From: an uncultured Eubacteriales bacterium | Lineage (GTDB): Bacteria; Bacillota; Clostridia; Christensenellales; Aristaeellaceae | Reading direction: 5' to 3' | Assembly: GCA_902764875.1 (NCBI GenBank) | Contig: CACWXP010000008.1 | Location: 1 to 64,000, forward strand | Length of the DNA: 64,000 nt | In this document: piece after piece, positions 12,084 through 29,971 of the stretch | Layout: each line of letters starts with the position of its first letter | Position numbering within the stretch: position 1 is the first letter of the stretch | Made by a program: the position numbers and the translations under genes | The notes under the pieces: model-generated | The model's input: the letters and a program-made list of their open reading frames with translations, nothing else | Told to the model about the DNA's origin: nothing | The model's database searches: none

Positions 12084-12692
12084 TCAGCGGTCTTTCACCA
12101 TCCAGTAACACGGCAGGGCCTGATAATCCAGGCTGAATCCGGGCCGTGTCTCCCGGATGCTGAATCCCTTCTGCCGGAAGAAAAGAATGGCTTCCATATT
12201 ATTCGACAGAACATACAGCTGATAGGGGCCTTTTTCAGCCTCCAGAAAAGTGTCCATCAGCAAACTGCCGATCTGGTTCCCCCGCTTCTCTTCCTGTACG
12301 CTGATCCGGATCACCGAAGCCGTATCCGGCGATGCTTCCGTAAACAGATTCAGGTATTCCATGGCAACCCGGTCAATGTACTGCGCCTTGCCGCCGCATT
12401 TTTCATAGATCTTTTTATCCCAGAACATCGGCCCCCGCATCCATACAAGGACGCCGACTACTTTCGTTCCTTCCAGCGCAACAAACAAGTTTTCCCTCCG
12501 GAACATCTGATCTCCCGCGCGGATCATCTTCGGTATGACGGTCTCCGCCTCCTGCCTGTTCTTAAACATGGCAGGATAAATAAACGGATCGGAATCGTAG
12601 ATCAGGCCGGCGATTGTTTTCATTTGTTCTTCAGACAAAGGCTTGTCGGCCCTTCGGCATTTTATATTTTTCAAGCCGTTCAATTCCGCCAT
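12084..12692 (-). CDS. GNAT family N-acetyltransferase
   Basis: 202 residues from ATG 12692; GTG 12701 is an alternative three codons up. The acetyl-CoA-binding motif A is SVQEEKRGNQIGSLLM (R-G-N-Q-I-G), followed by a motif B region YVLSNNMEAILFFRQKGFSI typical of GNAT folds. The N-terminal part is rich in aromatic residues and may form the substrate pocket. Monocistronic; substrate unknown. Confidence 0.85.
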   Translation of the reverse strand: MAELNGLKNIKCRRADKPLSEEQMKTIAGLIYDSDPFIYPAMFKNRQEAETVIPKMIRAGDQMFRRENLFVALEGTKVVGVLVWMRGPMFWDKKIYEKCGGKAQYIDRVAMEYLNLFTEASPDTASVIRISVQEEKRGNQIGSLLMDTFLEAEKGPYQLYVLSNNMEAILFFRQKGFSIRETRPGFSLDYQALPCYWMVKDR

Positions 12693-12899
12693 TCCGTTCA
12701 CCCTCTTCTGCAGGCCGGTTTATCCGCAAAGCCATCCGTTTTATCTATTATACCATATTTTTCCTGCAGTTGCCAGTGCTTTACTGCTCCCGAACACCGA
12801 ACACCGATTTCTCCCGGTGCGGAGGCTGTATTTATCTTTTTTATTCGTTTCGGCGCTCTTTTGCAGCATCAGTTCAGATGTTTCAGATGTTCCAGAAAC

Positions 12900-14756
12900 T
12901 CAGGCGTCCACCGTTCCCGGCGTGCCCCTCAGCGCGCCCATCATGGCTTCAGCGGCATGCCGGACATCGTCAGCGCGCGCCCTGATCACTTTCGGATTTT
13001 TGCCCCGAACCTCATCCAGCGCCTTTTCATAGTTCATGATGAATTCTTCAATGCTTTCCATCATCATGCTCAGAGCACAGCTGCCGTTGTCATCGGATAC
13101 GATCATGTTCTGCTTGGCCAGCTCGCTGAAATCGGAATGGCTCAGTTTATTCCGCACCATACCGAGCCGGGCATAGGCATACATCACATCTCTCACTGTT
13201 TCTGTGCTGTCGCAGGCGGTATAGCCCGTAATTTTTTCCGGATCCTGGTTCCCGATGGACTCAGCTCGCCTCGTCGCATACGCAAGCGCCCTGTCATCGG
13301 CGTTGCCGGCCCTGATGCCGGCCCGGTCATAGTTCTTGAGAAAATAATGGTCCAGATCATCCATCTTATAATACTCGTATGGCTTCAGTTCCAGCCGCTG
13401 CCGCGCAAACAGATTGACGACCTCAGGCATATGCTTTGCATCATCGCAGTAATAAAAGATACCGCTGCCGACCAGATGGCTCGGGGCATGGGCCTCGATC
13501 AGTGTCAGCGCCTGCTGGAAGAGCTGATGCCGATAAACCCATTTGATCAGCCTGATGAATGAAATGGTGCCGTCCTCTTCCAGCAGCTGACCGTAGTCCG
13601 CCGCTATACAGCCGGCAATCACGCCGAACAGGAGCCCGTATTTGCCTTCTTTCATCCACGAGTTTTTATCCGCGACCAGCGTGCGCACCTGGCGGATACC
13701 TGCCTGAACCTCCAGAAGATTGCACATGGAAATCCCCAGGTCCACATGCCGTGCAGCGTAAACCAGGTGGCTGATACACTCATTCTCTTCCCCGGAGTTT
13801 TCCCAGAAATCAATCAGCATATCTGTCTTGCCGTAATTCAGGAAAGCATGCGCCGCGGAGGCCAGATATGAGGAGCGGGAAACGGCGGTATGATCTTCAA
13901 TGAGCCCCGTCATGCTCACGGCAGACTCGTAAACCTTCCAGGATTTCAGGTGAATATTGTTTCCGGGCGCTTTGAACATGATGCTCAGAATACTCAGAAC
14001 AACATGTTCAGACACCGCCGGACTGTCGCCCAGCGCGACATAGAGATTGATCTCGTCCTCACCGTCGGGAACAGGCTTTTTGACGGCCAGCACTTCTCTC
14101 ATCCAATAATCCCTGTCCTCGAACGTTTCTGTCGGAACGAAGCGGATACGGCAATTCTCATTTTGCGGAAGAATTTCAAACCTGGCAGAAGGCTTCACGT
14201 GGGTATACAGATAGTTTTTCACCCACAGGATCGTAAGCAGGGCTTCCTTGCGGGTTTCCGGCACGGCGGTGAAAAGCTCCTTCATGAACTGCTCATAAGC
14301 CTTTGAATCGGATGCCAGATCGTCAAAAAGGCTGTTGAGTTCCTTCTGCTGCTGCTTCAGGTAATCCCCGATGAAATCAGTAACCCCGGCGCGCAGATCA
14401 TCGGACAGAAACGCGTCAACCTTCTTCTGTTCCAGGCTCAACCCATCCGCAAACTGGGCAATCCGGGAACGGTACAGACCGTAAGCGGAGAGCGTAAGCG
14501 GATCCGCCCCGTAAAGGGCGCCCGCGTCTTTGAGGCACACGGGTTCTTTGTTCTTCGCGGGGTCGAGGGGATCTTTCCCGTCCAGGACGATGATCTCGTC
14601 AATAGAAAAACGGGACAGAATAAACCGGGTACTCGCCTCCATGCTCTGCAGCGCTTCACAGTAGCTGCGGCCGGATTCAGTCTGTACGGAATAATACCGC
14701 AGAGGTCTTTCGATCCCCAGTACGTCCGGTGATGTCAGAAGAATATTACGGGTCAT
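12900..14756 (-). CDS. CARF-HEPN-like protein (Csm6/Csx1, TM1812-type), no CRISPR nearby
   Basis: 618 residues from ATG 14756 behind AAGGAGG. N-terminal half: a Rossmann-like start (RNILLTSPDVLG, then FSIDEIIVLDG), a later INLYVALGDSPAVSEHVVL where TM1812-family CARF proteins usually carry a Gly-Gly-Phe-Arg or DxTHG-type ligand loop, then a LIEDHTAV...AFLNYGKTDMLIDFW segment recalling the family's linker. C-terminal half is helical and holds RNKLSH at 535-540, the R-N-x3-H signature of HEPN ribonucleases. Csm6/Csx1 proteins are activated by cyclic oligoadenylate made by type III CRISPR effectors; no cas10, other cas gene or repeat array is visible here. The ligand loop is degenerate, so it may sense another nucleotide. 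Family assignment is from memory, moderately sure. Confidence 0.6.
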   Translation of the reverse strand: MTRNILLTSPDVLGIERPLRYYSVQTESGRSYCEALQSMEASTRFILSRFSIDEIIVLDGKDPLDPAKNKEPVCLKDAGALYGADPLTLSAYGLYRSRIAQFADGLSLEQKKVDAFLSDDLRAGVTDFIGDYLKQQQKELNSLFDDLASDSKAYEQFMKELFTAVPETRKEALLTILWVKNYLYTHVKPSARFEILPQNENCRIRFVPTETFEDRDYWMREVLAVKKPVPDGEDEINLYVALGDSPAVSEHVVLSILSIMFKAPGNNIHLKSWKVYESAVSMTGLIEDHTAVSRSSYLASAAHAFLNYGKTDMLIDFWENSGEENECISHLVYAARHVDLGISMCNLLEVQAGIRQVRTLVADKNSWMKEGKYGLLFGVIAGCIAADYGQLLEEDGTISFIRLIKWVYRHQLFQQALTLIEAHAPSHLVGSGIFYYCDDAKHMPEVVNLFARQRLELKPYEYYKMDDLDHYFLKNYDRAGIRAGNADDRALAYATRRAESIGNQDPEKITGYTACDSTETVRDVMYAYARLGMVRNKLSHSDFSELAKQNMIVSDDNGSCALSMMMESIEEFIMNYEKALDEVRGKNPKVIRARADDVRHAAEAMMGALRGTPGTVDA

Positions 14757-15871: not shown

Positions 15872-15900
15872 CTTTGAATAAAACTCCTCTGTGTGCTATA

Positions 15901-15935
15901 AACCCCGGTCGCCTTGATTCATAAGGCTTCCGGGG
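15901..15935 (-). terminator. Hairpin after the Cys-rich small gene
   Basis: CCCCGG/CCGGGG and GCCTT/AAGGC pair with a 7-base loop; on the minus strand it is followed by TTTATA. Weak U-run. Confidence 0.5.
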
Positions 15936-15956
15936 CACTTTAGTCTCGTTTTGACT

Positions 15957-16124
15957 TTAATCCTCAGGCGGCCACGGCATATCATCACGTCCGCGGCAAT
16001 ATCTGCATTCTTTGGATGGCCGCCATCCGCCCGGATAGCCTTTTATGCACCTTCCGTTCGGCGAATCAGGGCACTCACCGCCTAATACCACTTCTTCCGT
16101 GTTTCTTTCTTCGTTGTCAGCCAT
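15957..16124 (-). CDS. Small Cys-rich hydrophilic protein, 55 aa
   Basis: Start ATG 16124 behind AGGAGGAAAACC. The sequence has an acidic N-terminus (MADNEERNTEEVVLGGEC), four cysteines (in ECPDSPNGRC and KECRYC) and Gly/Pro/Trp-rich spacers, suggesting a small zinc-binding fold or a secreted disulfide peptide without signal. No family recognised. It is 136 bases downstream of the large unknown gene of the RT cluster but has its own promoter (16192-16221). Confidence 0.6.
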   Translation of the reverse strand: MADNEERNTEEVVLGGECPDSPNGRCIKGYPGGWRPSKECRYCRGRDDMPWPPED

Positions 16125-16191
16125 GATGGTTTTCCTCCTGTTTTTCATTTTCGTCCATCTTTCGCAGTAAAGGAACCTGAAATCTGTTCAC

Positions 16192-16221
16192 AGTATACCA
16201 TACATCTTCCATTATTTACAA
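16192..16221 (-). promoter_or_regulatory. Promoter of the small Cys-rich gene
   Basis: On the minus strand TTGTAA and TATACT are 18 bases apart. Confidence 0.5.
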
Positions 16222-16259
16222 GATGCTTTTTTGAATGGCCCGGGGAGCATTGGGAACAT

Positions 16260-17816
16260 TCATACTCCCTGAATGGCGTGGATCACGCTCTCTTCCTGCC
16301 AGATCCACTTCCATTCCCGGTGCCCGCAGCACAGTTCTTCGAGCATCTCCGGCCTGAGATCTGCGCTGTTCAGCCTGTTCTTCTTCAGCATGCGGAGAAA
16401 GCCCTCTCTCAGCGGCTCTCCGTGCAGGCAGGTTCTGATCCTCGCGGGCAGGCCGCCGTCCGCCGAAAACGATGCGCAGAGGCTGTTCGCCGCTTCGCTC
16501 CCGTCTTCCCCGCCCGCGTGATCCGACGTCTGTCTTACAAAGCGGATCAGTCTTTCGACAGTTTCCCGGTCCGTTTCACCGATGTCCGCATAAAGCGCCG
16601 AAACGATGGGATAAGGCAGGCCTTCCATGGCATGGCGTATTTCAGCCCTCAGCTCGGGCAAAAAGCACACTTTCTCCCTGTCCAGGCTGAAGATTTCGCA
16701 CGCCGCCTCCCGGAACACAGCCATTTCCTGATCCGGCAGCATGATATAATCCGTCAGGGCATTCGGATAAAAACTGCGCTGGTTGTGTATGCCATTCTCC
16801 ACCATGGACAGCAAATGCGCGTCGTCCAGCACGTCCTGCTGGAAGCCGTTGGTCCAGATCAGGTTCCGATTCCGCCAGGTCCGGAAGAACATTCCCATCA
16901 GGATGGCCCCGATGATGTTCGGAATCAGTCCGTACGGCGGTTTCCGCATCGCCTCGAAAATCCCGGTGAAGGAAACTTTCTCCCCCTTTGCCAGCCGGTC
17001 TTCAAGATAAGCGTCAAAGGCCTTCTTCAGCATGACGATCTTTTCGCCGGCGTATCGGGGATCGTCCCAGGCACTGTCGTCGCCCCAGGCGAAGGCAAAA
17101 AGCCGGTCCGGCGTCCGATCGGGATCGGTGACACCGTCCCAGAGAGAGATCCTCTGCCCATAATATCCGTCACTGACGCGGAATCTGGCCGTGTGGATCC
17201 AGTAGAAAAACTGATCCAGATCCATCGTATCCGGCGAAACGGGATACGTTTCGCAGATGTCCCGCAGCACCCTGTCGAAAAAGTGTTGAAGCGTGTCGAA
17301 GGCAAAGCCCTCCGGGTGTCCCCCGTTATAAACCGTCACCGGATAGGAAATCAGCCTGTCCGTCCACGGCCGGAGTGCTTCGTACGCCCGGTCGAGATAT
17401 TCCCGGCCTTCCTGATTTTTTTTGCCGCCCGCCTGATTGAAGGCGGCCATGTGGAAGGCGTATTTTTCGTTGCATTCCTGTATCATCGGAGCGGCCGTCG
17501 CATCGATCACGGTGATCCCGCCCCGCGCCATGCTGAGCAGGGTTTCGTCGATGCCCGGTTTCTGACCGGGGTAGGCAAAAGCAAACACAAAGGGCTCAAA
17601 ATCTTTCTGGAACTTCAGCCTTTTCTCGATGCCGCGCTGCGCCCTGTCGATTTCCTTCTGCCTGACACCCGCGTAGAAGAAATTGTATCTTGCAACGATC
17701 CGCTCGTCGATGTGCATCAGCCTTGTAAACCGGAAATCGGTCCCGATGGAGGCGGCCGTCAGACCGGAAAGCTCCATCGCCGCCAGCCTCTGTAATTCCA
17801 GATTCTCTGTATCCAT
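16260..17816 (-). CDS. Large unknown protein of the RT/PP-loop cluster
   Basis: 518 residues, ATG 17816 behind GGGAGGAAAA. Soluble, rich in aromatic residues and helices; no P-loop, nuclease or membrane signature is evident. A stretch at about 285-330 (MRKPPYGLIPNIIGAILMGM) weakly recalls the PPYGL winged segment seen in C-terminal parts of large defence ATPases such as BREX BrxC/PglY; this is from memory and could be chance. It starts 18 bases after the PP-loop gene and is clearly in its operon, so it is probably a partner of that enzyme. Residues 60-90 (QRGIEKRLKFQKDFEPFVFA) may form an exposed helix. Confidence 0.7.
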   Translation of the reverse strand: MDTENLELQRLAAMELSGLTAASIGTDFRFTRLMHIDERIVARYNFFYAGVRQKEIDRAQRGIEKRLKFQKDFEPFVFAFAYPGQKPGIDETLLSMARGGITVIDATAAPMIQECNEKYAFHMAAFNQAGGKKNQEGREYLDRAYEALRPWTDRLISYPVTVYNGGHPEGFAFDTLQHFFDRVLRDICETYPVSPDTMDLDQFFYWIHTARFRVSDGYYGQRISLWDGVTDPDRTPDRLFAFAWGDDSAWDDPRYAGEKIVMLKKAFDAYLEDRLAKGEKVSFTGIFEAMRKPPYGLIPNIIGAILMGMFFRTWRNRNLIWTNGFQQDVLDDAHLLSMVENGIHNQRSFYPNALTDYIMLPDQEMAVFREAACEIFSLDREKVCFLPELRAEIRHAMEGLPYPIVSALYADIGETDRETVERLIRFVRQTSDHAGGEDGSEAANSLCASFSADGGLPARIRTCLHGEPLREGFLRMLKKNRLNSADLRPEMLEELCCGHREWKWIWQEESVIHAIQGV

Positions 17817-17834
17817 CCCGCTTTTCCTCCCTTT

Positions 17835-19403
17835 TTACAGCACCCGGTCCACGCTGTACCAGGAATCGAACGCAAAGCAGCTGCGGATATGGTTATGGCA
17901 CTCCGCACAGTGCAGGCAGCTGTCATCAATCACCGGCTGTCCGTTTTCAAAATGCAGGTGGCCGTGCGGGCAGCCCACCTCGCAGGCGCGGCAGGCGACG
18001 CAGGCCGCCGCTTTTCGGAACACCTTTTTGACCAGTCCCGTAAAGCTTTCTTCCCAGGTTTCCGGCAGGGATATATCCATCCGCCCACCGTCTTCCCGAA
18101 CGGTGAAGGCGTACTCCTTCCCGCCGCGTTCGAGCACATAACGGGTCGTTTCCGGGCCATCCTGCGTTCCTTCCGCGGATCGGAGCAAGCCCAGGGTCCT
18201 GAACCATTCTTTCCAGTTCGTGGCAGGATTCCCGATCTCCAGATGGAGGCTGCCGTCCCGCAGAACTTCCCTGTAATCCACGCTGTATTTCGTATGGTCC
18301 GAACCTTTCCGGAATCTCCACTCGCCCCCGTTGACATATCTTTCCAGCGCGTCCTCGCCGTCAAAGCTGCCGCGGTAGGCGGAGCGGATCACGTTGAAAT
18401 ACGGTTCCAGTTCTTCGCGCCTCAGCCCGTAGGAGCTGCCCAGACTGATCGTGCTCGCGAGGGGGCAGAGCTTGCACCCGATCCGCATCCAGCCCTCCCT
18501 GTAGGCCGGGTTGAATTCGATACCGTTCATCATCAGATACAGGAACACCTCGAGGCTGTTCCAGTTGATGATGCCGTTGATATGCACCTGGTCTTTTTGC
18601 TTGATGCCGATTTCAACCAGCGTGTTGTTCTTGCGGCGGTAGCCTTCATCCGCCCGGTTCCCGACGAAGAGCAGGTTTTTGGCGTCCGCTCTGCCCACGT
18701 ATTCCATCATCTGGAGGATCTGGGGCACGGATTTACGCACGGAGCAGCACCAGCGGTTATCAAAGGAGGGCGGCCCGATCCGCTCCCAGTCTTGAACGGG
18801 ATCGTGGGGCGACCGAATCACAAAAAACCGGATCCCTTCCGCCTCGCAGCGTGCGCGCTCTTTTTCAACCGTCTCGACGGACATCTGCAGCTCCATGCCC
18901 GTGTCGCCCCAGGTGACAAAAAAGCAGTCGTGCGGAATGATGCGCTTCACCAGGTCCAGCAGCACCATGCTGTCTTTGCCGCCGCTGTAGGCGACGTTAA
19001 TATAGTCCACCCGATCCTTCCATTCCGTATAGGCGCAGTAAATCCGGAGCAGCGTGTCCTGTACCAGCTGGTCCATCAGCAGCCGGTTCTTCCGGAACCA
19101 GAGATCCATGTCGATCGGCTCAAGATGACAGCCCAGGATGGTGTCGTCCAGAATCCGGACCGACGGAAGGGTGAGACAGCCGTTGTCGGCCAGCTCGGCG
19201 ATCAGCCGGCCCCGGTAGAAATAGCGATACCGAAAGGCCCAGAGCACCGGAGCGGTGCCACTTTCGTCAAAGGAGAAATACTTATCGAAGCCGAAATTCT
19301 TCAGCTCTTCCGGGAAAACCGGCCGGTACTCGTTATTCAGAAAGGCGTTTTCATTTTTCAGAATCAGCAGATTGTTCTCTGTATCCCAGTCGATCTTATA
19401 CAA
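17835..19403 (-). CDS. PAPS-reductase-like PP-loop protein with ferredoxin domain
   Basis: 522 residues starting at TTG 19403 with GGAGGG upstream. A roughly 130-residue N-terminal domain of unknown fold precedes the PP-loop motif YSGGKDSMVLLD (SGGKDS at 140-145), then WCCSVRKSVP, and GCKLCPLAS in the middle. The C-terminal 60 residues carry two cysteine clusters (CVACRACEVGCPHG and CLHCAECHNHIRSC) of the 4Fe-4S ferredoxin type. The family includes DndC of DNA phosphorothioation and various sulfur-transfer or thiolation enzymes; adenylation with ATP pyrophosphatase chemistry is expected. Its operon partners are RNA methyltransferase-like proteins, so an RNA substrate is possible. No dndB/D/E is present. 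Confidence 0.85.
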   Translation of the reverse strand: MYKIDWDTENNLLILKNENAFLNNEYRPVFPEELKNFGFDKYFSFDESGTAPVLWAFRYRYFYRGRLIAELADNGCLTLPSVRILDDTILGCHLEPIDMDLWFRKNRLLMDQLVQDTLLRIYCAYTEWKDRVDYINVAYSGGKDSMVLLDLVKRIIPHDCFFVTWGDTGMELQMSVETVEKERARCEAEGIRFFVIRSPHDPVQDWERIGPPSFDNRWCCSVRKSVPQILQMMEYVGRADAKNLLFVGNRADEGYRRKNNTLVEIGIKQKDQVHINGIINWNSLEVFLYLMMNGIEFNPAYREGWMRIGCKLCPLASTISLGSSYGLRREELEPYFNVIRSAYRGSFDGEDALERYVNGGEWRFRKGSDHTKYSVDYREVLRDGSLHLEIGNPATNWKEWFRTLGLLRSAEGTQDGPETTRYVLERGGKEYAFTVREDGGRMDISLPETWEESFTGLVKKVFRKAAACVACRACEVGCPHGHLHFENGQPVIDDSCLHCAECHNHIRSCFAFDSWYSVDRVL

Positions 19404-19420
19404 GGCGAACCCTCCATTTT

Positions 19421-20146
19421 TTATATGCGGAAACGATGGAGCAGAATTCCGGCCGCGACCGCAACGTTCAGCGAGTCATTGTTCTCCATCTCGATCCGGC
19501 AGTTCACGTCGGTCTCCTGCAGCACTTCCTCCGAAACCCCGAAGTGCTCGTTGCCAACCACAAAGACCATTTTGTCTCGGGCGGCGATCCCGGACATCGG
19601 CACAGCATCCCGCAGGCTTGTCCCCACGACGTACCAGCCCTCCGCCCGCAGCTCCCGCAGCTTTTCCGGCAGAACGGCCGGGAGCGCCGGCAGAAAGAGG
19701 GACGCGCCCTGCGATGTTTTCACGATCGACCGTGCGTGGTAGTTGGTGCCGTCCCCTTCGCTGTAATAGACCAGATCGACACCGAAGGAGAATGCCAGGT
19801 TCATGATCCGCCCGATGTTTGCCCGGTAAGTCACCTTGTCCAGCACCAGAATCCGGTGCAGCTCCCCGGAAGGGATCGGAATCTCAGCCTTTTTGCAGAT
19901 GGCGACCATGGAGTCTTCCTTTCCCCGGGAGATATACGCCATCACCTCGGGGGTCACCTTCGTTTTCTTCACGAAGGGGATCGGACAGTCATTTACGTAC
20001 AGCAGTTCCGTCACGATGCCGGCGTTCACCGCCTGGCGGATGATGTTCTCCCCGACCACGCTGAAAACGTCTTTTTCCTCCCATCCCTTGTATATAAAAG
20101 CCTGATGCAGTTTTCGTGCCCGTGAACTGTTGATGGATCGAAGCAT
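19421..20146 (-). CDS. SPOUT (TrmH-type) RNA methyltransferase
   Basis: 241 residues from ATG 20146 behind AAAGGAG. N-terminal about 85 residues form the substrate-binding domain (SSRARKLHQAFIYKGWEEKD). The SPOUT knot motifs are intact: LDKVTYRANIGRIMNLAFSF (motif 1, N-x-G-R), VFVVGNEHFGVSEEVL (motif 2) and NDSLNVAVAAGILLHR (motif 3). Predicted to transfer methyl from SAM to a 2'-hydroxyl of RNA. It lies two bases after the paralogue at 20149 and 17 bases before the PP-loop gene, so the pair may act together. Confidence 0.85.
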   Translation of the reverse strand: MLRSINSSRARKLHQAFIYKGWEEKDVFSVVGENIIRQAVNAGIVTELLYVNDCPIPFVKKTKVTPEVMAYISRGKEDSMVAICKKAEIPIPSGELHRILVLDKVTYRANIGRIMNLAFSFGVDLVYYSEGDGTNYHARSIVKTSQGASLFLPALPAVLPEKLRELRAEGWYVVGTSLRDAVPMSGIAARDKMVFVVGNEHFGVSEEVLQETDVNCRIEMENNDSLNVAVAAGILLHRFRI

Positions 20147-20148
20147 CG

Positions 20149-20883
20149 TTACTCTCCTTTCAGATTTCTGCAGGAGTACATGATAATCGCGGCTGCCTCC
20201 CCCATAACGGTCGGATCGCTGCAGTCCAGCCCCGGATCGCACACGATATCGCTGACCGCCAGCAGCGACGCGGCGGAAGCGTCCGATCCGGAGATCAGAA
20301 CGGCTATCCGCTCACCGGCGGGGATCTGCTCCACGGGGACGGTCTTTCTCTTTCCGACCGTCACAAACATCACCTGCTGTTCCCGCAGCATCCGGATCGC
20401 GTCCGGAAACGGCATGCTCAGGATGGGGAGCTCCAGCAGATTGTCCATGCCGCTTCTGGTCACCGGCCTGTCCCATGGGTCGGCCGAATCCCCGGTCAGC
20501 AGGATGCCGTCAAAGCCGAAACTGCGGGCGCTGCGAATGACGGTGCCGAGCGCGCCTGTTTCGTGATAATTGTCCAGCACCAGAATCCTCTCAAACTTTT
20601 CGAGCTTCAGCTTCGGCTTTTTCACGACAGCAAACCAGTATCCGCTGTCCATGCCGATTTCCGCGGCAACCTCTTCCGAAATCCAGGTCCTGTCCATATC
20701 TTCGAACAGCCCGTATTCGCGCACCTTCTCATGGATCACAAATTCCGTCAGAAGGTTGCGTTCGACTGCCCCGTTCAGCATGCGCAGACTGTTCGTAATG
20801 AAATATTCGCAATCCCTGTCGCCACCCGCATACAGTTCTTTCCATTTTTTTACTTTCGGATGGCGTGCCGAGCGAATGTTCAT
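20149..20883 (-). CDS. Degenerate SPOUT paralogue
   Basis: 244 residues, ATG 20883 behind CGGAGGAATCCCT. It aligns by eye with TrmH/SpoU methyltransferases: LDNYHETGALGTVIRSARSF (motif 1, with the usual Asn-Leu-Gly changed to Gly-Ala-Leu-Gly), VLISGSDAS in place of the Gly-Asn-Glu motif 2, and DPTVMGEAAAIIMYSC in place of Ser-Leu-Asn-Val motif 3. SAM-knot residues are thus altered and catalysis is doubtful. Directly followed by an intact SPOUT gene, it may be the non-catalytic half of a heterodimer, as in some two-subunit tRNA methyltransferases. A long structured leader precedes it. Confidence 0.75.
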   Translation of the reverse strand: MNIRSARHPKVKKWKELYAGGDRDCEYFITNSLRMLNGAVERNLLTEFVIHEKVREYGLFEDMDRTWISEEVAAEIGMDSGYWFAVVKKPKLKLEKFERILVLDNYHETGALGTVIRSARSFGFDGILLTGDSADPWDRPVTRSGMDNLLELPILSMPFPDAIRMLREQQVMFVTVGKRKTVPVEQIPAGERIAVLISGSDASAASLLAVSDIVCDPGLDCSDPTVMGEAAAIIMYSCRNLKGE

Positions 20884-20919
20884 AGGGATTCCTCCGTTTT
20901 TATTCCTGTTAATAAGCGA

Positions 20920-21088
20920 ATACCTTGTCTGAGCGGAAACCCCGACAAGGTATCATGCGTCGGGGGAAAGAGCTGAAAAGGACTACCTTCGAAAACAGTC
21001 CGCGGTTTCGGCTGCCCGTAAAGCCTTTTCAAGGAAACCGGGACGGTTTTTTTACGGACGCGCCGGTTTAAAAGGCGCACCCCCGACG
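20920..21088 (-). ncRNA. Candidate structured RNA or leader between RT and SPOUT genes
   Basis: Closing stem P1: CGTCGGGGG (20958-20966) pairs exactly with CCCCCGACG (21080-21088), 9 bp enclosing 113 nt. Inside: GCGCC/GGCGC (21060-21064/21074-21078); CCGTAAA/TTTACGG (21016-21022/21051-21057) containing CCTT-TTC-AAGG and AAACC-GGGAC-GGTTT hairpins; GGACT/AGTCC (20980-20984/20997-21001). 3' of P1 a perfect 10-bp hairpin ATACCTTGTC/GACAAGGTAT (20920-20929/20944-20953). A promoter at 21094-21122 would start transcription almost exactly at the first base of P1. No U-run follows, so it could be a leader of the SPOUT operon or be processed. I do not recognise a known riboswitch or T-box. Stems read by eye; covariation untested. 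Confidence 0.6.
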
Positions 21089-21093
21089 AAATG

Positions 21094-21122
21094 ATTATCC
21101 CATTTTTTGGGCATTCTTGCAA
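21094..21122 (-). promoter_or_regulatory. Promoter of the structured RNA / SPOUT operon
   Basis: On the minus strand TTGCAA (21117-21122) and GATAAT (21094-21099) are 17 bases apart. It lies 3' of the RT gene, giving the RNA and downstream genes their own start. Confidence 0.6.
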
Positions 21123-21161
21123 GCTCTTTTCTTTCTATTTGATCCGTCTTTATCCCGCGCG

Positions 21162-22394
21162 TCATATCACGCCGCCTCGCAGAACCTCTTTCCGTTTCTC
21201 CAGGCGGCTGTAATACGCGCGCACAAGCGGCACATATCCGGTTTCCCTGATTTCCGGATAGCGGCAGCGGTATTTGGCGTTGGTTCGTCTGCCGGTGGCG
21301 ACATACCGCAGGCATTCCTGGGACAGGTGATCCAGGCGCTTCAGGCGTTCCGTCGTGGTGATATAGGGGAAGAACCTGTCCGTCCAGCTCACCCAGTCTT
21401 CCTCCCCGGGGCCGTAAAAGTATTCGTGGATATGCATCGCCATCAGTTCCACTCCCTTTTCCCTGGTAATGCGGCCCTCCTTTACGCTGCGGCAGATTTT
21501 ATCGGCGCGGTGCTTCATCCTGCCGCATGCCTTTGCGTAGGTATTGTCGGCGATATCCATCGCGTTCGGCGTAAATCGGATCCCGAGCAGGTCAAACGCT
21601 TCGCCGGGCGAAACGATGCCGCTCTTCTCCTCGTTCAAGCTCAGCCCGAAGAGAGCAATCCGCTCCCTCAGCTCATTCATCAGCCGTTCGGCCGTCCCGG
21701 CATCCTCGCAGAGCATGAAGATGTCGTCGCAGTAGCGGCTGCAGATGCGTACGTTTTCCGCCATAAGCCGGTCGATATCCGTCAGAAAGATGTTTTCCAG
21801 GAAAGCAACGGTGGGATTGCCCGGAAGAACGGAGGTGAAGCCCTTTTCCAGCTTTCCTTTTCGCCGATAAACGTTCCTGGTCACCAGCCACATGATAAAG
21901 CGGCGGACTTCCGGCTCATCCGAAAGCCACTGCTCCAGCGTTCCTTCCAGGATTTCCGGATCGATGGATTCCCCGAATTTGTGGATGTCCGCCTTGATCA
22001 CATATTTCTCCCGATGCGGATCACTTCTGCGGACGGTACGGTACATCTGCCAGTACGGTTTGTTCTTCCGGGAGGAGTAGAGCGAGTCCGGAAGCTGTCC
22101 GTCATAGCGATTCAGCAGCATAAAAGCCAGATACTGGAGAATGATCCTGTTTTCGTCTGTAAAGCTGTACACTTTCCGCCTTTTCTGGCTCTTTCCCTTC
22201 CGAAGCAGGATCAGGTTCGGCGGTTCAAAAAACCAGTCGCCTTCGGTCAGCCGCTGAAGGTCCGCGTCAAAGCGGTCCGTCAGGATATAAGCCGCCATGG
22301 CTTCAACTTCCGCCGGGTCGCTGTTCACGGCTTCCCGGCACCGGCGCAGAAAGGCATCTTTCCGCTCCGGATGTTTCATTTCCTCGAATATCAT
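21162..22394 (-). CDS. Stand-alone reverse transcriptase
   Basis: 410 residues, ATG 22394 behind GAGAGGCACA. RT motifs in order: KADIHKFGESID (motif A, catalytic Asp 136), SVLPGNPTVAFLENIFLTDI (motif B, PGNP 191-194), RYCDDIFMLC (motif C, YCDD 221-224), then LSLNEEKSGI (motif D) and DLLGIRF. No maturase X-domain zinc or HNH endonuclease of group II introns follows, nor clear retron NAXXH/VTG motifs; the last about 130 residues are a basic helical domain. It therefore looks like one of the domesticated or unknown-group bacterial RTs, many of which are antiviral. Its operon (zinc-ribbon, RT, then structured RNA, SPOUT pair, PP-loop) is not one I know. Confidence 0.88.
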   Translation of the reverse strand: MIFEEMKHPERKDAFLRRCREAVNSDPAEVEAMAAYILTDRFDADLQRLTEGDWFFEPPNLILLRKGKSQKRRKVYSFTDENRIILQYLAFMLLNRYDGQLPDSLYSSRKNKPYWQMYRTVRRSDPHREKYVIKADIHKFGESIDPEILEGTLEQWLSDEPEVRRFIMWLVTRNVYRRKGKLEKGFTSVLPGNPTVAFLENIFLTDIDRLMAENVRICSRYCDDIFMLCEDAGTAERLMNELRERIALFGLSLNEEKSGIVSPGEAFDLLGIRFTPNAMDIADNTYAKACGRMKHRADKICRSVKEGRITREKGVELMAMHIHEYFYGPGEEDWVSWTDRFFPYITTTERLKRLDHLSQECLRYVATGRRTNAKYRCRYPEIRETGYVPLVRAYYSRLEKRKEVLRGGVI

Positions 22395-22415
22395 TGTGCC
22401 TCTCTCACGATCTTT

Positions 22416-22631
22416 TTAATCCTCGAACAGCGTACATCCGCTCTCTTTGAAATACTCGATCCTGTTCTCCAGGTCCTCCACGGTCACGCCGAACTCCTCG
22501 GCCATGCACTCCAGGCAGAGGAATTCCTCTGTTTCCAGACCGTTGAGTTTTTTGTTCAGCGCAATCTCGTCCCGGATCAGCCTGCCGCCGCACACTTCAC
22601 AGTTGATCATTTCCGTACCAATCATACACAT
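22416..22631 (-). CDS. Small zinc-ribbon protein
   Basis: 71 residues from ATG 22631 (GGGAGAAAA upstream). Two CxxC knuckles (NCEVCGG near the N-terminus; LCLECMAEEFGV) are separated by about 23 residues, with an acidic C-terminal helix ending GCTLFED. It resembles a widespread small clostridial zinc-ribbon family of unknown function. It is the first gene after the promoter at 22693-22723 and is 21 bases upstream of the RT gene. Confidence 0.75.
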   Translation of the reverse strand: MCMIGTEMINCEVCGGRLIRDEIALNKKLNGLETEEFLCLECMAEEFGVTVEDLENRIEYFKESGCTLFED

Positions 22632-22692
22632 TTTTCTCCCTTACCGAAAGCGTCACATTCCCGCATTCTGTCCGTTCTGTTCTGTACGACAT

Positions 22693-22723
22693 ATAATATT
22701 ACAGATCCTTTCACTCCTGTCAA
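22693..22723 (-). promoter_or_regulatory. Promoter of the zinc-ribbon/RT operon
   Basis: TTGACA (22718-22723) on the minus strand is followed by AATATT at 17 or TATTAT at 19 bases, in AT-rich DNA about 60 bases before the start codon. Confidence 0.6.
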
Positions 22724-23710: not shown

Positions 23711-23770
23711 TGGTTTTCCTCCTCCATTTGAATTCCGTTTCACGATACACGGAAAAAGCGCTTCACATCC

Positions 23771-24198
23771 TTAAACAGATGCCTTTTTGCAGACAATTTC
23801 TTTTTCCGAATCTTCCACCTGCAGCCGGTTATTCGGATCATTGATGCGCGCCCGAATGGGTTCTGCTTCATCCCGCCGATGCGGTGGTTCAGCACAACAT
23901 CCGCCAGCGGCCGGATTCCCACCCGCTTCAGCGCGCTGACGCAGTCAATATATTCCTCGGCTGTTCCGTATTTGGTTCTTACCGTTCCCTTTTGGTTGAA
24001 TTCTCCCAGATCATACAGGTCATAGACAGCATAGCCGACTTCACGGTCTCCCAGTTCTCCCTTGTAAGCCGGCGGCAGCCAGACCGCAGTAAAGCCCCGG
24101 AAGGCCAGCCAGCGCGCCATCCGGGACAGTTTTTGCCAGTGTTTTCCATCCGCAGGCAGGTACCATTCGAATCCCTGCAGCATCGTTTCGTTGATCAT
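23771..24198 (-). pseudogene. Truncated, frameshifted GH13 alpha-amylase
   Basis: From ATG 24198 the frame reads MINETMLQGFEWYLPADG, then FRGFTAVWLPPAYKG, VGYAVYDLYDLGEFNQKGT and ADVVLNHRIGG, unmistakably the N-terminal region of cytoplasmic alpha-amylase (GH13 subfamily 5 type). At about 23868-23882 the homology jumps to another frame (DEAEPIRARINDPNNRLQVE) and then stops at 23771. About 110 of the usual 480 or more residues remain and the catalytic Asp/Glu are lost. The promoter (module A, copy 2) survives upstream. Confidence 0.85.
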
Positions 24199-24208
24199 CT
24201 TCACACAT

Positions 24209-24283
24209 CCATTCCGGGGCATTTGGGTTCCTGCGCTATGATAAATCCGTTTCAGACCCGATGTCAAACGAAATCTCCCGCCG
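24209..24283 (-). promoter_or_regulatory. Promoter module A, copy 2
   Basis: TTGACA (24262-24267) and TATCAT (24238-24243), 18 bp apart on the minus strand, within about 70 bases nearly identical to 14827-14896. Conserved leader ACCCAAATG. Confidence 0.65.
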
Positions 24284-24286
24284 GAT

Positions 24287-24328
24287 CCGGAAACCTGCTT
24301 GCATTGAACCCGCAAAATAGCGTAAAAT
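24287..24328 (+). promoter_or_regulatory. Promoter module B, copy 1 (before alarmone synthetase)
   Basis: CCGGAAACC..CTTGCATTGAACCCGCAAAA with TTGCAT (24299-24304) and TAAAAT (24323-24328) 18 bases apart. The same 30-base block recurs at 29851-29880. It is back to back with module A copy 2. Confidence 0.65.
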
Positions 24329-24361
24329 AAGAACTACAATCAATGACGGAGGTTTACATTT

Positions 24362-29850: not shown

Positions 29851-29893
29851 CCCGGAAACCCACTTGCATTGAACCCGCAAAAAAGAATATAAT
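29851..29893 (+). promoter_or_regulatory. Promoter module B, copy 2 (before phosphatase)
   Basis: CCCGGAAACCCACTTGCATT, then GAACCCGCAAAA, with TTGCAT (29864-29869) and TATAAT (29888-29893) 18 bases apart; near-identical to 24287-24316. Confidence 0.7.
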
Positions 29894-29971
29894 AGAATAT
29901 ATGCTTTCTGAATACTGATCCATCGAATCCCTGATCTAATGAAAACACAGAAAGCAGGGGAGTGATAAAGG

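Follow-up and report, generated by a model that had tools for sequence, protein, structure and literature searches.

The subject of this study is a gene cluster at positions 15957-22723 of a 64,000-nucleotide stretch of DNA (the window) from contig CACWXP010000008.1 of an uncultured Eubacteriales bacterium. The cluster comprises a small zinc-ribbon protein (ZR), a reverse transcriptase (RT), a structured RNA, two SpoU-type methyltransferase-like proteins (SPOUT1 and SPOUT2), a PP-loop/4Fe-4S protein related to BrxP, a large protein related to the middle of BrxC (BrxC-middle) and a small four-cysteine protein (C63) (Table 1). An annotation made earlier from the letters alone (the sequence-only reading) had singled out this set, and its observation as a whole proved real, with correct coordinates, strand and gaps. 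Start coordinates and gaps were re-derived from the open reading frame (ORF) list and the sequence: all genes lie on the minus strand, separated by 21 bases (ZR–RT), 2 bases (SPOUT1–SPOUT2), 17 bases (SPOUT2–BrxP) and 18 bases (BrxP–BrxC-middle), and the RT–SPOUT1 gap of 278 bases houses the RNA.

To place the cluster among its relatives, we searched 300 family genomes with the RT and obtained a single close copy (81% protein identity), on contig 29 (JAFRBK010000047.1, 95,554 bp) of a goat-ileum Clostridia metagenome-assembled genome of a second species in the same genus (G236; G000 is the window's own genome). This contig carried close copies of the remaining cluster members too; its cluster locus is called L028, and the cluster copy in G236 is also listed as L003. 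Blastn split the alignment of window positions 15899-22613 to it into three segments, 79, 86 and 88% identical at the nucleotide level, and outside this block the two contigs (116 and 96 kb) shared short scattered matches only, the longest of 659 bases. The G236 counterpart of one neighbouring window gene lay on a different contig and was 69-70% identical (81% in one 197-base stretch). Because the block occupies different places in the two hosts and shows greater similarity than this neighbour, the comparison suggests that the cluster was transferred as a unit. No clean empty site was found when left-flank DNA was searched in six genus genomes and the match on G236 contig 24 was compared. The ratios of nonsynonymous to synonymous substitution (dN/dS, Nei-Gojobori, window versus second species) were 0.15 for ZR, 0.26 for RT, 0.22 for SPOUT1, 0.18 for SPOUT2, 0.23 for BrxP, 0.30 for BrxC-middle and 0.55 for C63; judged by these values, six of the seven shared genes (0.15-0.30) are under purifying selection. 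With a shared block between unrelated flanks and these ratios, the proposal of one co-oriented unit was borne out: the cluster is a conserved unit, beyond a chance arrangement.

Table 1. Genes, RNA elements and promoter-like sites of the cluster in window coordinates
Feature	Position	Strand	Basis
Operon promoter, sigma-70-like, TTGACA-16-TAATAT or -17-AATATT	22696-22723	-	Consensus match only
ZR, small zinc-ribbon protein	22610-22416	-	ATG at 22610; second-species homology starts there
Scar: last seven desulfurase codons (KIVREAQ) and stop, running into RT start	22395-22415	-	17/21 bases versus L028
RT, class UG26, motifs intact (D136, YCDD 221-224)	22394-21162	-	PADLOC RT_UG26, E 5.9e-84
RNA promoter-like site, TTGCAA-17-GATAAT, extended TG	21094-21122	-	Consensus match only
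RT-5-like RNA, 131 nt	20958-21088	-	Rfam RF03026 full length, E 0.0055, 26 bits
RNA P1 (closing helix)	21088-21080 with 20966-20958	-	
RNA hairpin	21078-21060	-	
RNA pseudoknot	21059-21051 with 21022-21014	-	
RNA P2	21044-21034 with 21009-20998	-	
RNA P3 hairpin	21025-21010	-	
Second hairpin, 10-base arms, between RNA and SPOUT1	20920-20953	-	Conserved in L028
SPOUT1, SpoU-type; of the TrmH residues, catalytic Arg (R117) alone kept	20883-20149	-	Pfam SpoU_methylase, 1.4e-9
SPOUT2, SpoU-type; N110, E200, S225, N227 kept, N116 replaces catalytic Arg	20146-19421	-	Pfam SpoU_methylase, 4.4e-27
BrxP core, PP-loop/4Fe-4S, TTG start, without DUF4007	19403-17835	-	PADLOC BrxP, 2.2e-137, profile 1-512 of 779
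BrxC-middle (the "large unknown"), 518 aa	17816-16260	-	hhalign to BREX-4 BrxC columns 592-1079
C63 promoter-like site, own	16221-16192	-	Consensus match only; kept in L028
C63, small 4-Cys protein	16148-15957	-	Homologous in L028; least constrained member

The promoter scan returned 13 sites in the region, with 3.4 expected by chance. In the second species the scan found no counterpart of the operon promoter at the corresponding position. The promoter-like site of the RNA reads TTGAAA-17-GATAAT in L028, and in both species the closing helix of the RNA starts 6 bases downstream of it.

The RT had been described as stand-alone with an intact YCDD motif, to be placed among the UG groups, and this description was confirmed. 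It scored 280 bits against the PADLOC model RT_UG26, the next best UG model being UG17 (91 bits), and YxDD was present in all 30 aligned RTs. In the tree of these 30 sequences, which agrees with PADLOC on class UG26, both cluster RTs grouped with L030 of the same genus (97/87; branch 2.13). Two other candidates were rejected: the NCBIfam group II maturase model gave 87.5 bits versus a cut-off of 300, and no group II intron family reached its Rfam gathering score in the window. No experimental study of the UG26 class was found in the literature searched, and in the available part of one paper UG26 is only mentioned, in viruses (PMC10504277). A further UG26 RT lies on contig 20 of G236 (L042, 9403-10653), where it has no sulfur or SPOUT partners. 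Other UG26 RTs of the family (L029, 4793-10602, and L031-L033) adjoin two genes that by eye resemble C39-peptidase ABC exporters.

Downstream of the RT, the predicted structured RNA turned out to be real and RT-5-like, matching the full RF03026 model but missing its gathering score of 45.7. RNAs at or above this cut-off accompanied 16 of the 28 other UG26 RTs, always on the strand of the RT and upstream of it (that of L075 about 1.4 kb away). By set, 5 of the first 15 UG26 loci passed (L009, L010, L012, L013, L014), with L005 (E 0.054) and L003 (E 0.67) below the cut-off, and 11 of the next 14 passed, with L074 below it. Because RT-5 stands near so many other UG26 RTs, the RT and the RNA of the cluster appear to belong together; UG26 RTs seem ordinarily to have RT-5 as their partner RNA, and the cluster RNA looks like a diverged relative that moved downstream. 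The sub-cut-off RNA of L005 (1274-1377, 30.8 bits), from the same genus, lies on the strand opposite its UG26 RT. The term "RT-5 RNA" was absent among the literature matches listed. Weinberg 2017 reportedly named RT-5 and Mestre 2022 is said to have named the UG classes, so the link between UG26 and RT-5 may already be known from these works.

We then assessed the architecture of the RNA. In both species the closing helix forms nine perfect pairs (CGTCGGGGG/CCCCCGACG and TGTCGAGGG/CCCTCGACA), and two of the pairs are changed on both sides. For comparison with shuffled sequences we used 20 RNAs (19 Rfam hits and the window), seeking the outer helix at the same place in each. In 16 of the 20 it was equalled by no more than 25 of 500 shuffles (window 1, G236 4); L014, L065, L068 and L075, the last cut by the locus end, did not reach this level. 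P1 was weaker in an earlier run over a wider search space (window 22/300 shuffles, G236 23/300). The pseudoknot, which pairs a 5' strand with the P3 loop, was equalled by no more than 5 of 100 shuffles in 11 of the 20 RNAs (window 0, G236 5). L074 and L075 yielded no pseudoknot in this scripted search, and L009, L014, L065 and L068 yielded different pairings. A directed search, run without a control, found the pseudoknot in 8 of the 8 RNAs given. Its letters vary among RNAs (GCCTGC/GCAGGC, GCCCGC/GCGGGC, ACCTGCA/TGCAGGT, GCTCGCA/TGCGAGC; GTCCGTAA/TTACGGGC in the window). The RNA core folded better than most of its shuffles (window z -2.97, 2/200 as good; G236 z -2.23, 7/200), and the whole 278-nt gap gave a z of only -1.45. 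In these comparisons, the closing helix and pseudoknot of the window RNA covary. The cluster thus resembles UG26 RTs with RT-5 in its RT class and in the closing helix, P2/P3 and covarying pseudoknot of its RNA; it differs in the downstream position and sub-cut-off score of the RNA, in an extra GCGCC/GGCGC hairpin, and in its SPOUT, BrxP and BrxC genes, which the 28 other loci lack.

To characterize the SPOUT pair, we examined the residues required by Thermus thermophilus TrmH. According to the available part of the source, these are Asn35, Arg41, Glu124, Ser150 and Asn152, and the proposed mechanism has S-adenosylmethionine (AdoMet) on one subunit and Arg41 coming from the other (PMC5372735). 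The positions were located by alignment with three ordinary SpoU proteins and with solved chains. In both species SPOUT2 kept four of the five (N110, E200, S225 and N227), with N116 instead of Arg, and SPOUT1 kept one, R117, with A111 in place of Asn, D201 in place of Glu, P224 in place of Ser and V226 in place of Asn. Neither chain carries all five residues, and jointly the two complete the set. Since each SPOUT lacks what the other keeps, we predict an obligate heterodimer with one working, divided active site, in which SPOUT1 would be the RNA-binding and SPOUT2 the AdoMet-binding subunit. The pair thus shares with the TrmH/SpoU 2'-O-methyltransferases the SpoU family and the published dimer chemistry, in which the AdoMet site and Arg come from different subunits, and is unlike them in splitting the five catalytic residues into complementary parts across two paralogues. 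The word "heterodimer" is absent from the SPOUT review searched (PMC9508554).

The sulfur genes pointed to type 4 bacteriophage exclusion (BREX-4). The PP-loop protein had been called DndC-like; its assignment as a sulfur-transfer enzyme stood, and BREX-4 BrxP was the better name, with 457 bits to PADLOC BrxP versus 26 bits to SspD. In an alignment with five BREX-4 BrxP proteins, SGGKDS, C219, C220, C310 and C313 are kept, as are the ferredoxin cysteines 468, 471, 474, 478, 496, 499 and 502, and the protein ends about where the C-terminal part of BREX-4 BrxP begins, so that the DUF4007 part, to which BrxP of this BREX type is usually fused, is absent. By sequence, it is a BREX-4 BrxP core without DUF4007, a sulfur transferase of the 3'-phosphoadenosine-5'-phosphosulfate (PAPS) reductase type. 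The "large unknown" matched no Pfam family and gave a partial BrxC match in PADLOC; hhalign against five BREX-4 BrxC proteins aligned it over 460 columns (probability 99.6%, E 2.9e-24) to positions 592-1079 of the 1411 in the template, with the ATPase and coiled-coil tail not covered. Its structure model had a predicted local distance difference test score (pLDDT) of 73.6 and a predicted template modelling score (pTM) of 0.59. The available part of a BREX survey describes BrxC as an ATPase, a winged helix-turn-helix, an alpha+beta domain, a second winged helix-turn-helix and a coiled coil, and proposes its middle as an extended DNA-binding surface (PMC12839542); by position, the window protein corresponds to that middle. 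The same survey lists a desulfurase and a small zinc finger for type 4, and in its main text reverse transcriptase, SPOUT, TrmH and SpoU never occur (PMC12839542). The suggestion of the sequence-only reading that the members act on nucleic acids was likewise supported. ZR was 45-58% identical to ZR genes in the BREX-4 loci L043, L044, L045 and L047, of which L043 is a true BREX-4 locus (PglZ above the BREX_PglZ_4 cut-off, BrxL above TIGR02688).

In L028 a cysteine desulfurase gene (370 aa, 12274-13383) sits between ZR and RT. Its product scored 431 bits to both SspA and DndA in PADLOC, and 429 bits to NifS and 339 bits to DndA in NCBIfam, each of the latter two below cut-off. The 21 bases between ZR and RT in the window match the 3' end of this gene (KIVREAQ-stop versus KIAGEAQ-stop), a level of 17 matches that none of 10000 shuffles reached and that, among 1090 21-base windows of the gene, the end itself alone attained; blastn placed the join at 12295 (L028) and 22415 (window). 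This match argues that the desulfurase was lost in the window lineage. Five further desulfurase-like genes were found in G000 and three more in G236.

By gene content, the cluster is nevertheless not a BREX-4 system. Inspection of the ORF list by eye revealed no PglZ or BrxL in or beside it, and the AAA+ ATPase of BrxC is missing, although a zinc finger and, intact in L028, a desulfurase are present. PglZ was not found in the whole genomes G000 and G236 in a search without a positive control (BrxL was not searched there); used in tblastn, the same query detected PglZ in 11 loci, one of them the locus it came from. The cluster is like BREX type 4 in its BrxP core with PP-loop and Fe-S cysteines, BrxC middle, ZR and, in the second species, SspA/DndA-like desulfurase, and unlike it in lacking PglZ, BrxL, DUF4007 and the BrxC ATPase and coiled coil and in adding the RT, the RNA and the SPOUT pair.

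We next determined how widely these genes occur together. Two of the 45 genus genomes contained BrxC-middle, and two of the 300 family genomes contained SPOUT2 (at E 1e-30); both times these were the window's own genome and G236. BrxP occurred in 8 of 300 family genomes (these two included) and in 11 of 396 order genomes (own included), and the other ten order genomes had no RT or SPOUT beside it. Tblastn detected SPOUT, BrxP, BrxC, desulfurase, PglZ or BrxL in none of the 28 other UG26 loci, and a ZR-like gene in one, L036. RT and SPOUT were likewise absent from all 37 BrxP loci (18 viral-contig, 5 family and 14 order loci; L056 is the L047 gene). Flanks of 1.5 kb were taken for the 14 order loci, and in both sets of loci several contigs were small or had the gene near an end, so that distant partners could be missed. 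SPOUT1 was found in 4 of 329 genomes across the phylum, its own included, and the other three (L080-L082) had ordinary SpoU motifs. The sequence-only reading had looked for the RT, SPOUT pair and PP-loop gene together in several unrelated genomes; the set was instead confined to two species of one genus, and its homologues indeed stand mostly apart, the situation which that reading had named as counting against it, although the maturase grouping named alongside was not seen. The cluster is a rare recombinant, not a false one. The ZR-like gene of L036 (15790-15966) stands alone and is 47% identical to ZR; a UG26 RT lies about 5 kb away, and BrxP was not detected.

Mobile and viral sequences were also screened. 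Scans with two short peptide patterns each, which give weak negatives, found SPOUT2 in genome contigs of the second species only, and no SPOUT1, BrxC-middle, RT or BrxP in viral contigs. Broader alignments to viral contigs returned one UG26 RT locus (L117) together with BrxP or PP-loop relatives, at least 188 in number; the best 80 of the latter were retained. BrxC-middle had no match in plasmids, and SPOUT1 had 7 plasmid records, each less than 35% identical and covering no more than 75% of the query. Phages yielded 3 distant RT records and 9 BrxP records, 4 of the latter being 24-34% identical over 80% or more of the query. Among the 18 viral-contig BrxP loci (IMG/VR), 10 encode a short BrxP that ends in a ZR domain (L118-L121, L123-L125, L127, L128 and L130; reading frames 574-591 residues long, that of L130 truncated at its start, versus about 780-800 for BREX-4), and 6 encode a second or sole short BrxP without ZR (L120, L121, L123, L124, L125 and L129). 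No BrxC, PglZ or BrxL was detected beside the viral short BrxP genes, only some of the contigs extending far on both sides. In a BrxP tree of 38 rows, from which L056, exact duplicates and rows of at most 300 residues were dropped, 11 distinct short rows formed one clade (100/99) apart from the cluster, and the cluster pair stood alone on a long branch (2.2) whose position was not fixed. The fusion ties ZR to the function of BrxP, and these loci suggest that a ZR-BrxP core can persist without the rest of BREX-4. The viral fusions are thus like the cluster in a ZR-linked BrxP too short for DUF4007 with no BrxC, PglZ or BrxL detected adjacent, and unlike it in their separate BrxP branch and in having no RT or SPOUT detected (the RNA was not searched there). 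L120, L121, L123, L124 and L125 each encode both forms; in L120 and L121 the second short BrxP lies directly behind the first, near genes that by eye resemble an SNF2 helicase and a lysozyme; the viral short BrxP possibly serves phage DNA-sulfur self-marking.

Two observations concern the neighbourhood of the cluster. A promoter-like repeat of 46-48 bases (87-98% identical) occurs at window positions 24286-24333 and 29852-29897 and at L028 15211-15257, with one copy less than 2 kb from the cluster in each species. At window positions 23740-24315, a shortened alpha-amylase gene (first ~110 profile positions) adjoins a cytidylyltransferase gene.

In our reading the cluster is a system of the UG26/RT-5-like kind to which a new accessory module is joined. 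Sequence comparison establishes which genes it holds, that two species conserve them, how the RNA is built, how the SPOUT residues are divided and that the sulfur genes are kin to BREX-4; from these findings we tentatively favour, at somewhat less than even chances, a transferable and probably defensive operon in which a UG26 RT acts with an RT-5-like RNA, the RNA is 2'-O-methylated and the RNA or complementary DNA (cDNA) is thiolated in its backbone. The RT would bind the RNA and copy part of it, as class 2 UG/defence-associated reverse transcriptase (DRT) enzymes do; templated synthesis of this kind has its analogy in DRT10/UG17, as far as the available part of the source goes (PMC12632851). 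The SPOUT heterodimer, with SPOUT2 holding AdoMet and SPOUT1 supplying the catalytic Arg to a composite site, would 2'-O-methylate RNA, most likely the RT-5-like RNA, where methylation of a base might mark the end of the template or shield the RNA. Sulfur would pass from a cysteine desulfurase (encoded in the cluster of the second species, and by another copy in the window's genome) to BrxP with the help of ZR, and BrxP, positioned by the ATPase-less BrxC-middle, would put it into the backbone of the particle (cDNA, hybrid or RNA). The particle, rather than the chromosome, is the proposed target because the cluster lacks the ATPase, DUF4007, PglZ and BrxL and has the RT and RNA in their place. 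The product would act against phages, an antiviral role that we infer; the suggestion of the sequence-only reading that the locus is an RNA-templated or RNA-modifying antiviral system, or an RNA thiolation and methylation pathway, is in this sense partly supported. Like DRT10 (UG17) and other class 2 DRT systems, the cluster pairs a compact RT with a structured RNA, roughly 130 nt long here and 137 nt in DRT10 (available part of PMC12632851), and UG17 was the next best UG model for its RT; it differs in that no SLATT gene was seen in it and in its extra modification genes.

Several findings weigh against this proposal. The window RNA falls below the RF03026 gathering score, as does the G236 copy (26.3 bits, E 0.67 in a larger search), and it lies downstream of the RT, unlike the 16 upstream RT-5 RNAs. 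The full gene set was found in two species only, C63 is weakly constrained, and the sulfur genes have no ATPase-bearing partner in the cluster; the best-studied sulfur systems require one. A rival explanation, which we regard as unlikely, is an island holding two unrelated defence remnants, a complete UG26 RT/RT-5 unit beside a decayed BREX-4 without joint function. In its favour, the partners stand apart in the 28 UG26 and 37 BrxP loci, the cluster has no PglZ, BrxL, DUF4007 or BrxC ATPase, and the desulfurase was lost in the window lineage. Decay, however, predicts neither BrxP and BrxC cut near domain borders with gaps of 17-18 bases nor a whole block common to non-homologous flanks, and BrxP and BrxC-middle are intact in both species at the dN/dS values given above.

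A host RNA modification operon, combining tRNA or rRNA thiolation with ribose methylation and using the RT and RNA as regulator or guide, seems less likely again. PP-loop enzymes thiolate tRNA in other pathways, and SPOUT2 is closest to RlmB/TrmH-type enzymes. However, both SPOUTs fall far below the RlmB and TrmH cut-offs, which led us to reject them as orthologues of housekeeping rRNA/tRNA methyltransferases; BrxP, with ferredoxin cysteines of the BREX-4 type, falls in the DNA-sulfur branch, and a sporadic spread in 2 of 45 genus genomes is unlike housekeeping. We give a similarly low chance to a phosphorothioate system that marks the genome, has lost its ATPase and borrows one from the host, with the RT and RNA as effector or backup upon infection. 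The kinship of the sulfur genes with a DNA-marking system speaks for it, as do the region proposed to bind DNA that BrxC-middle keeps (available part of PMC12839542) and the defence role of DRT enzymes elsewhere (available part of PMC12632851), but PglZ was found in neither whole genome by the uncontrolled search, DUF4007 is absent from the cluster, and the SPOUT pair would be left unexplained. The boldest form of our own proposal is more doubtful than any of these: an RT-RNA particle that writes both backbone sulfur and ribose methyls onto its own RNA or cDNA, by means of a SPOUT heterodimer with a divided site and a BrxP module that has no ATPase and takes its direction from the RT-5-like RNA. 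Were it true, the product would be a naturally occurring parallel to therapeutic 2'-O-methyl phosphorothioate oligonucleotides.

In the parts of the literature searched, no described system with the full set was found, nor were RNA-templated DNA synthesis and backbone sulfur modification found together. To our knowledge, these two are not known in combination, and the cluster joins them as two defence chemistries. It also offers testable points, predicted from sequence comparison, in RT-5 as the usual partner of UG26 RTs and in the SPOUT pair as a heterodimer with a divided active site. If the proposed operon is real, the product of the RT or its RNA may be chemically marked, and an RNA particle could take the place of an ATPase in directing sulfur marking.

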